A stretch of DNA of 64,000 nt from Prochlorococcus sp. AG-363-P06 (GTDB lineage: Bacteria > Cyanobacteriota > Cyanobacteriia > PCC-6307 > Cyanobiaceae), in assembly GCA_003280025.1 (NCBI GenBank), contig QCGD01000001.1, forward strand, positions 124,001-188,000, in the 5' to 3' direction. A program made the position numbers and the translations under genes. Under the pieces are notes generated by a model. That model saw only the letters and a program-made list of their open reading frames with translations, was not told the DNA's origin and did not search any database. Every line of letters starts with the position of its first letter. Positions within the stretch are counted from its first letter, which is position 1. Below are positions 37,044 to 60,461 of the stretch, one piece after another.

Positions 37044-37128
37044 CCCTTTTACAAAGGGTCGGTAATCTGGCAAAATATCTAATCGCGTAGGTCTGACAAT
37101 ATCAGACCCATTCTTAAATCAAAGAATG
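37044..37128 (+). promoter_or_regulatory. Intercistronic hairpin array between a- and c-subunit genes
   Basis: CCCTTT-tac-AAAGGG (37044-37058); GGTCTGA-caata-TCAGACC (37090-37108); CATTCTT-aaatca-AAGAATG (37109-37128). Confidence 0.65.
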
Positions 37129-37170
37129 TCCAAGCGTGTATGACAAAAAAAGATTTATCACAAGTATTAA

Positions 37171-60060: not shown

Positions 60061-60087
60061 ATAGAGATTTATAATATTTTTTTTAAT

Positions 60088-60117
60088 TTATAGCGGTGCA
60101 AGTAGTAAGCGTTTCAT
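60088..60117 (-). pseudogene. Degenerate signal-peptide gene start (MKRLLLAPL*)
   Basis: ATGAAACGCTTACTACTTGCACCGCTATAA. Confidence 0.4.
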
Positions 60118-60124
60118 TAATTGC

Positions 60125-60165
60125 ATAAAAAATGAGATTGACTCCATTCCTGAATCAATCTCATT
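60125..60165 (-). terminator. Intrinsic terminator on minus strand
   Basis: AATGAGATTGA-13 nt-TCAATCTCATT followed on the minus strand by a T-run; perfect 11-bp stem. Confidence 0.75.
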
Positions 60166-60209
60166 AACTTATTTCAATTGCTAGTAATTTTTTTCTAATG
60201 GCTGTTTGT

Positions 60210-60248
60210 TTATACCAATGTTAATTTCTCTGGTGGACTATCAATCAT
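60210..60248 (-). CDS. Candidate 12-aa micropeptide MIDSPPEKLTLV
   Basis: GGAGGA Shine-Dalgarno 7 nt before ATG; intrinsic terminator about 45 nt downstream. Confidence 0.45.
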   Translation of the reverse strand: MIDSPPEKLTLV

Positions 60249-60311
60249 TTCTGATTCCTCCATGCGGTTAATTAAATATTAGTCAATCTTATTTATGTTG
60301 TATATCCGTAG

Positions 60312-60371
60312 TTATGCTGATTTTTTATGGACTTTCCTAATAGCTACTAGTGGGAGTAGTAAGCGTTTTAT
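60312..60371 (-). pseudogene. Second degenerate signal-peptide start (IKRLLLPLVAIRKVHKKSA*)
   Basis: ATAAAACGCTTACTACTCCCACTAGTAGCT..., ATA where a start ATG would be; shares AAACGCTTACTACT with the copy at 60088-60117. Confidence 0.4.
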
Positions 60372-60461
60372 TTAATTACAGATAATGTTTGGAAATCCCA
60401 TCAAGATTTGTTTTTGTACTTGTTATTACAGCTGTAGAATTTTATCAAAGTTATTAATTAA

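Follow-up and report, generated by a model that had tools for sequence, protein, structure and literature searches.

Yfr11, an RNA published as ORF-less, reads here as a free-standing micro-mRNA, and we consider it reasonably probable that its translation yields a peptide whose head, MIDSPPE, acts in trans. The same MIDSPPE start is present in Yfr11 and in three related RNA families, and therefore these RNAs are probably miniature mRNAs; judged from their sequences, they read as paralogous micro-mRNAs that would encode a conserved seven-residue head with a free tail. The window analysed is a 64,000-nt stretch of a Prochlorococcus genome. Steglich et al. 2008 (PMC2518516) detected Yfr11 and Yfr16 in MED4 by microarray and determined their sizes with Northern blots and 5'RACE. 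In that study an ncRNA was defined by having no ORF, and Yfr11 was accordingly classed as ORF-less, with RNAz support; the new ORFs given there were 33-130 aa long. The MED4 matches to the Rfam family RF02363, at 358606-358754 and 657391-657529, correspond within one base to the published Yfr11 and Yfr16 (657392-657529). The window unit is the same RNA end to end, with the same promoter region, terminator and lineage, but it reads as an ORF where Yfr11 and Yfr16 were published without one, and it has a 3-nt in-frame tail deletion, one codon being lost (KLT-LV versus KLTRLV). No paper containing MIDSPPE was found in the literature searched, and the coding nature of Yfr11 appears to be unreported, the sRNA itself being already known.

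The window unit matches RF02363 (Yfr11) by cmscan over the whole model (1-144 of 144) with 77.3 bits, above the gathering score of 44 (E 9e-11), and thus belongs to the family. Its features are listed below; the transcript start site was placed by aligning to the MED4 5'RACE end.

60127-60269, minus strand: Yfr11 transcript, Rfam RF02363 match, 5' end (60269) inferred
60261-60256, minus strand: Shine-Dalgarno (SD) sequence GGAGGA; GGAGG retained in four of four paralogous groups
60248-60210, minus strand: ORF translating to MIDSPPEKLTLV and a stop; MIDSPPE head conserved across paralogous groups
60243-60256, minus strand: start-codon hairpin flanking the AUG, AAUC (60256-60253) pairing with GAUU (60246-60243)
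60126-60165, minus strand: intrinsic terminator, a 14-pair stem and then a T-run; stem changes compensatory among copies
60276-60281, minus strand: -10 box TAATAT, at -12 to -7 of the inferred start site
60300-60321, minus strand: upstream inverted repeat ATCAGCATAACTACGGATATAC, consensus ATCRG-N8-CYGATWTAC, centre near -43
MED4 1086192-1086213: Yfr19 promoter copy of the inverted repeat

The SD sequence stands 7 nt before the ATG at 60248, and the terminator stem (60165-60131), whose outer 11 bp are perfect, lies 44 nt past the ORF stop and runs into TTTTTT. A sequence-only reading had described GGAGGA, the 7-nt spacing, a 12-aa ORF, a gap of about 45 nt and an 11-bp stem with a T-run, and all of them are where it put them; its proposal that the minus strand carries an independent unit, made up of a micropeptide ORF and a terminator, is well supported. 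It had also called such a unit hard to get by chance, which holds in part: this is the single unit within the 64-kb window that combines an SD sequence, an ATG, an ORF of 7-40 codons and a strong terminator, but first-order Markov shuffles give a mean of 0.2 such units per window, so that chance occurrence is not impossible. The window pattern is therefore suggestive by itself, not decisive, and the significance of the unit rests on conservation rather than on local pattern. An in-frame upstream ATG at 60263 (MEESE-MIDSPPE...) is ACG or AAG in sister copies and the frame is shifted in a third family; since it is not retained in relatives, the ORF start is placed at 60248. Direct 40-nt repeats with 73% identity (60079-60118 and 60333-60372) flank the unit, and the mobile-element footprint that they might represent was rejected, as the core word is no consistent neighbour of other Yfr11 copies. 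The Rfam ATPC RNA motif (RF01067) is located at 37048-37138 of the window (95 bits).

Copies of Yfr11 were gathered blind to the ORF, by the promoter-only pattern TCNGCATWWNTACSSATATAC (reversed control, 0), which gave 47 distinct copies. The SD sequence, the ATG and an ORF starting MI[DEN][SC]PP are present in 42 of them. In one copy the ATG has become ACG, and the same copy reads PSDT where others have PPEK; four more are without SD or without ORF. Loss of the reading frame in relatives that keep only the terminator, named beforehand as evidence against the ORF, is thus seen in a minority. Two of the four copies lacking SD or ORF have a common alternative ORF-less body, which is also found in MED4 at 1347613; this body, ATCTTGATCTAACGGATCTAAGC, together with the Yfr11 promoter and terminator, constitutes a conserved ORF-less sRNA candidate.

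Among 266 genomes of the genus, 227 contain a match to a degenerate MIDSPPE pattern (reversed control, 0), and three groups beyond Yfr11 emerged from this pattern and DNA search. First, Yfr8 contains ATG ATT GAT AGT CCG CCT GAA ATT TAG, that is MIDSPPEI and a stop, beginning 22 nt inside the published RNA (339952). Yfr8, which with Yfr9 forms RF02360, is about 75% identical to Yfr11 over about 108 nt and has promoter, leader and MIDSPPE head in common with it, but it differs in its 8-aa ORF, its longer RNA and its antisense partner Yfr9; the ORF published for Yfr8/Yfr9 is a 44-aa frame on Yfr9. Second, an unannotated Yfr11-like (third) family, scored by RF02363 almost solely below threshold, has ATG ATT GAC AGT CCA CCA GAG and encodes MIDSPPEELNYKI and variants. 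The last group (fourth family), located using the Yfr8 leader as DNA query, reads ATG ATC GAT AGC CTG CCT GAA ATT TCG GAA TAA (MIDSLPEISE). In MED4 (979878-980141) a conserved ORF of about 29 aa (MSKLPSSASFRCPIRNKLNSRVFAPVKNN), its end frame-shifted in this strain, follows about 45 nt on; it has no Rfam or Pfam match, and the transcript of the fourth family is probably dicistronic. Each group is represented once in the window's genome, at C1 (the window copy), C4, C11 and C7. The SD-plus-ORF pattern was found in one of the 59 genera of the family sample, and the MIDSPPE micro-mRNA paralogues read as confined to one genus. A cyanophage origin was considered and rejected: the motif occurs in six viral contigs, where most occurrences open longer unrelated ORFs and one is truncated at the contig end, and none of the six carries the Yfr11 leader.

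The coding signal is found in the comparison of families. Among the four family consensuses all six codons after the ATG vary at the third base, always synonymously (ATY GAY AGY CCR CCW GAR), and between families the head has a single non-synonymous change, the fourth family reading Leu for Pro5. Column permutation for amino-acid identity, in a test where 15 codons or fewer are close to the limit and where some of the bases are also under RNA-level constraint from the start-codon hairpin, gives p = 3e-4 for the four consensuses and p = 0.001 for 27 alleles, with p > 0.95 in frames +1 and +2. When each family is taken by itself, codon positions give a weak signal (p 0.05-0.48). The within-family counts of the third family are also biased, since many of its loci were collected by a pattern requiring most of the peptide; this bias weighs far less on the comparison between families and on the copies gathered by promoter. 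No coding signal was detected in the tail (p 0.17 and 0.70). In three of the four groups divergence is lowest over codons 1-7, the head (0.014-0.047 versus 0.13-0.17 in the tails). The conserved ORF with a coding signature expected of a dual-function sRNA is present, with its signal lying between families and weak within them.

The same data bear on the possibility that Yfr11 is a base-pairing sRNA only, with GGAGGGAUC...AUGAUYGAYAGUCCACCAGAG acting as RNA seed and hairpin and the ORF incidental. Its published classification as an RNAz-supported ncRNA, the conserved hairpin around the AUG and the transcripts that the same promoter drives without an ORF (from 4 of 47 Yfr11-type promoters, and Yfr19) agree with such a role. 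However, a pairing seed would not favour the change of CCACCAGAG to CCGCCTGAA in Yfr8, by which the peptide is retained, and neither the synonymous divergence at all six codons after the ATG nor the retention of GGAGG and ATG at functional spacing fits it, and we regard a role in base-pairing alone as unlikely.

The start of the RNA is under structural selection as well, and because of this a base-pairing or cis-regulatory role stays a candidate. In each of the 25 distinct SD-ATG contexts the spacer between SD and AUG pairs with GAUY of the first two codons over 4 bp or more, whereas spacer-shuffled controls form this helix in 18-50%; the hairpin around the AUG is common to the families, and RNAalifold places both-side changes mostly in the terminator stem. 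Translation could also matter in cis, if ribosomes on the SPPE codons, perhaps pausing in an EF-P-dependent way, determined how stable or accessible the sRNA is, the peptide itself having no target. The invariant Pro-Pro head with its free tail and variable stop position, the hairpin in the initiation region and the half-lives of 4.8 min for Yfr11 versus >20 min for Yfr16 are consistent with this. The MIDSLPE family, however, lacks Pro-Pro, and no obvious cis target lies between stop and terminator; we judge this explanation improbable, though a little less so than base-pairing alone.

Two roles for the peptide that had been suggested from the sequence, leader and toxin, lost ground; a third suggestion, a dual-function sRNA, stays a candidate. 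An attenuator leader peptide controlling the gene behind it would account for a short ORF followed by a terminator, for the conserved prolyl-iminopeptidase-like gene (named by sequence resemblance only) behind Yfr8 and for the second small ORF behind that of the fourth family. The neighbours of the Yfr11 copies, however, differ and are often convergent, so that no consistent co-directional gene follows, and no alternative antiterminator is evident; this role is very improbable. A type I toxin, more doubtful still, would likewise be encoded by a small ORF, and for Yfr8 and its antisense RNA Yfr9 a toxin-antitoxin pair was proposed by the authors who described them, but MIDSPPEKLTLV is short, acidic and Pro-rich, by inspection without a hydrophobic membrane segment, and the window copy has no evident antisense unit.

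The promoter region, too, has a recurring element. Three of the four families have a clear copy of the inverted repeat ATCRG-N8-CYGATWTAC near -43, and the fourth has a degenerate form. MED4 contains six copies with up to two mismatches (reversed-pattern control, 0-1 per genome), preceding Yfr8, Yfr11, Yfr16, Yfr19, a unit that resembles Yfr11 but has no ORF, and a gene for a small protein. The latter, which is conserved and encodes about 50 aa (MKSLMNWLSKMLESMANAFIHP...RRRFN; MED4 1326700 and orthologues), has the repeat with one mismatch, recurring in five of five genomes tested, and no Pfam match. In MED4, Yfr11 and Yfr19 go down in light and up with DCMU, and Yfr16 does likewise, less strongly (PMC2518516). 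Yfr19, which is without an ORF, has both the motif and the expression of Yfr11, and this supports a common regulator; the repeat is a probable activator site.

For Yfr11 as a micro-mRNA, we propose that a light/redox-responsive promoter (the repeat near -43 and the TAATAT -10 box) would drive an RNA of about 143 nt ending at the intrinsic terminator, on which ribosomes would load at GGAGG and start at the AUG on the edge of the small hairpin. The predicted product is a soluble acidic peptide of 12-13 aa, of which the first seven residues are the conserved part. Because the paralogous RNAs encode the same head, the cell would make it from several promoters, by way of Yfr16, Yfr8, the Yfr11-like family and, as MIDSLPE, the fourth family. 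In the dark, or when electron flow is low, the head may bind a protein partner in trans as a small ligand; a second role, exerted by the RNA itself, may be contributed by its 3' part and the variable tail. In combining a small ORF, putatively translated, with an intrinsic terminator, Yfr11 resembles the dual-function sRNAs SgrS/SgrT, RNAIII and VcdRP, but known peptides of this kind are longer (VcdP, 29 aa; PMC8672173).

What, then, would these RNAs mean for high-light Prochlorococcus? More tentatively, it is possible that its multi-copy 'non-coding' sRNAs are mRNAs which, from promoters with a common redox-responsive motif, supply one MIDSPPE head as a redundantly encoded micropeptide signal specific to the lineage. 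If this is true, Yfr8, Yfr11 and Yfr16 of a dominant ocean phototroph would have to be counted as mRNAs for peptides of 8-13 residues, few genes with comparative support for selection would be shorter, and together with Yfr19 these three would be tied to one light/redox regulator.
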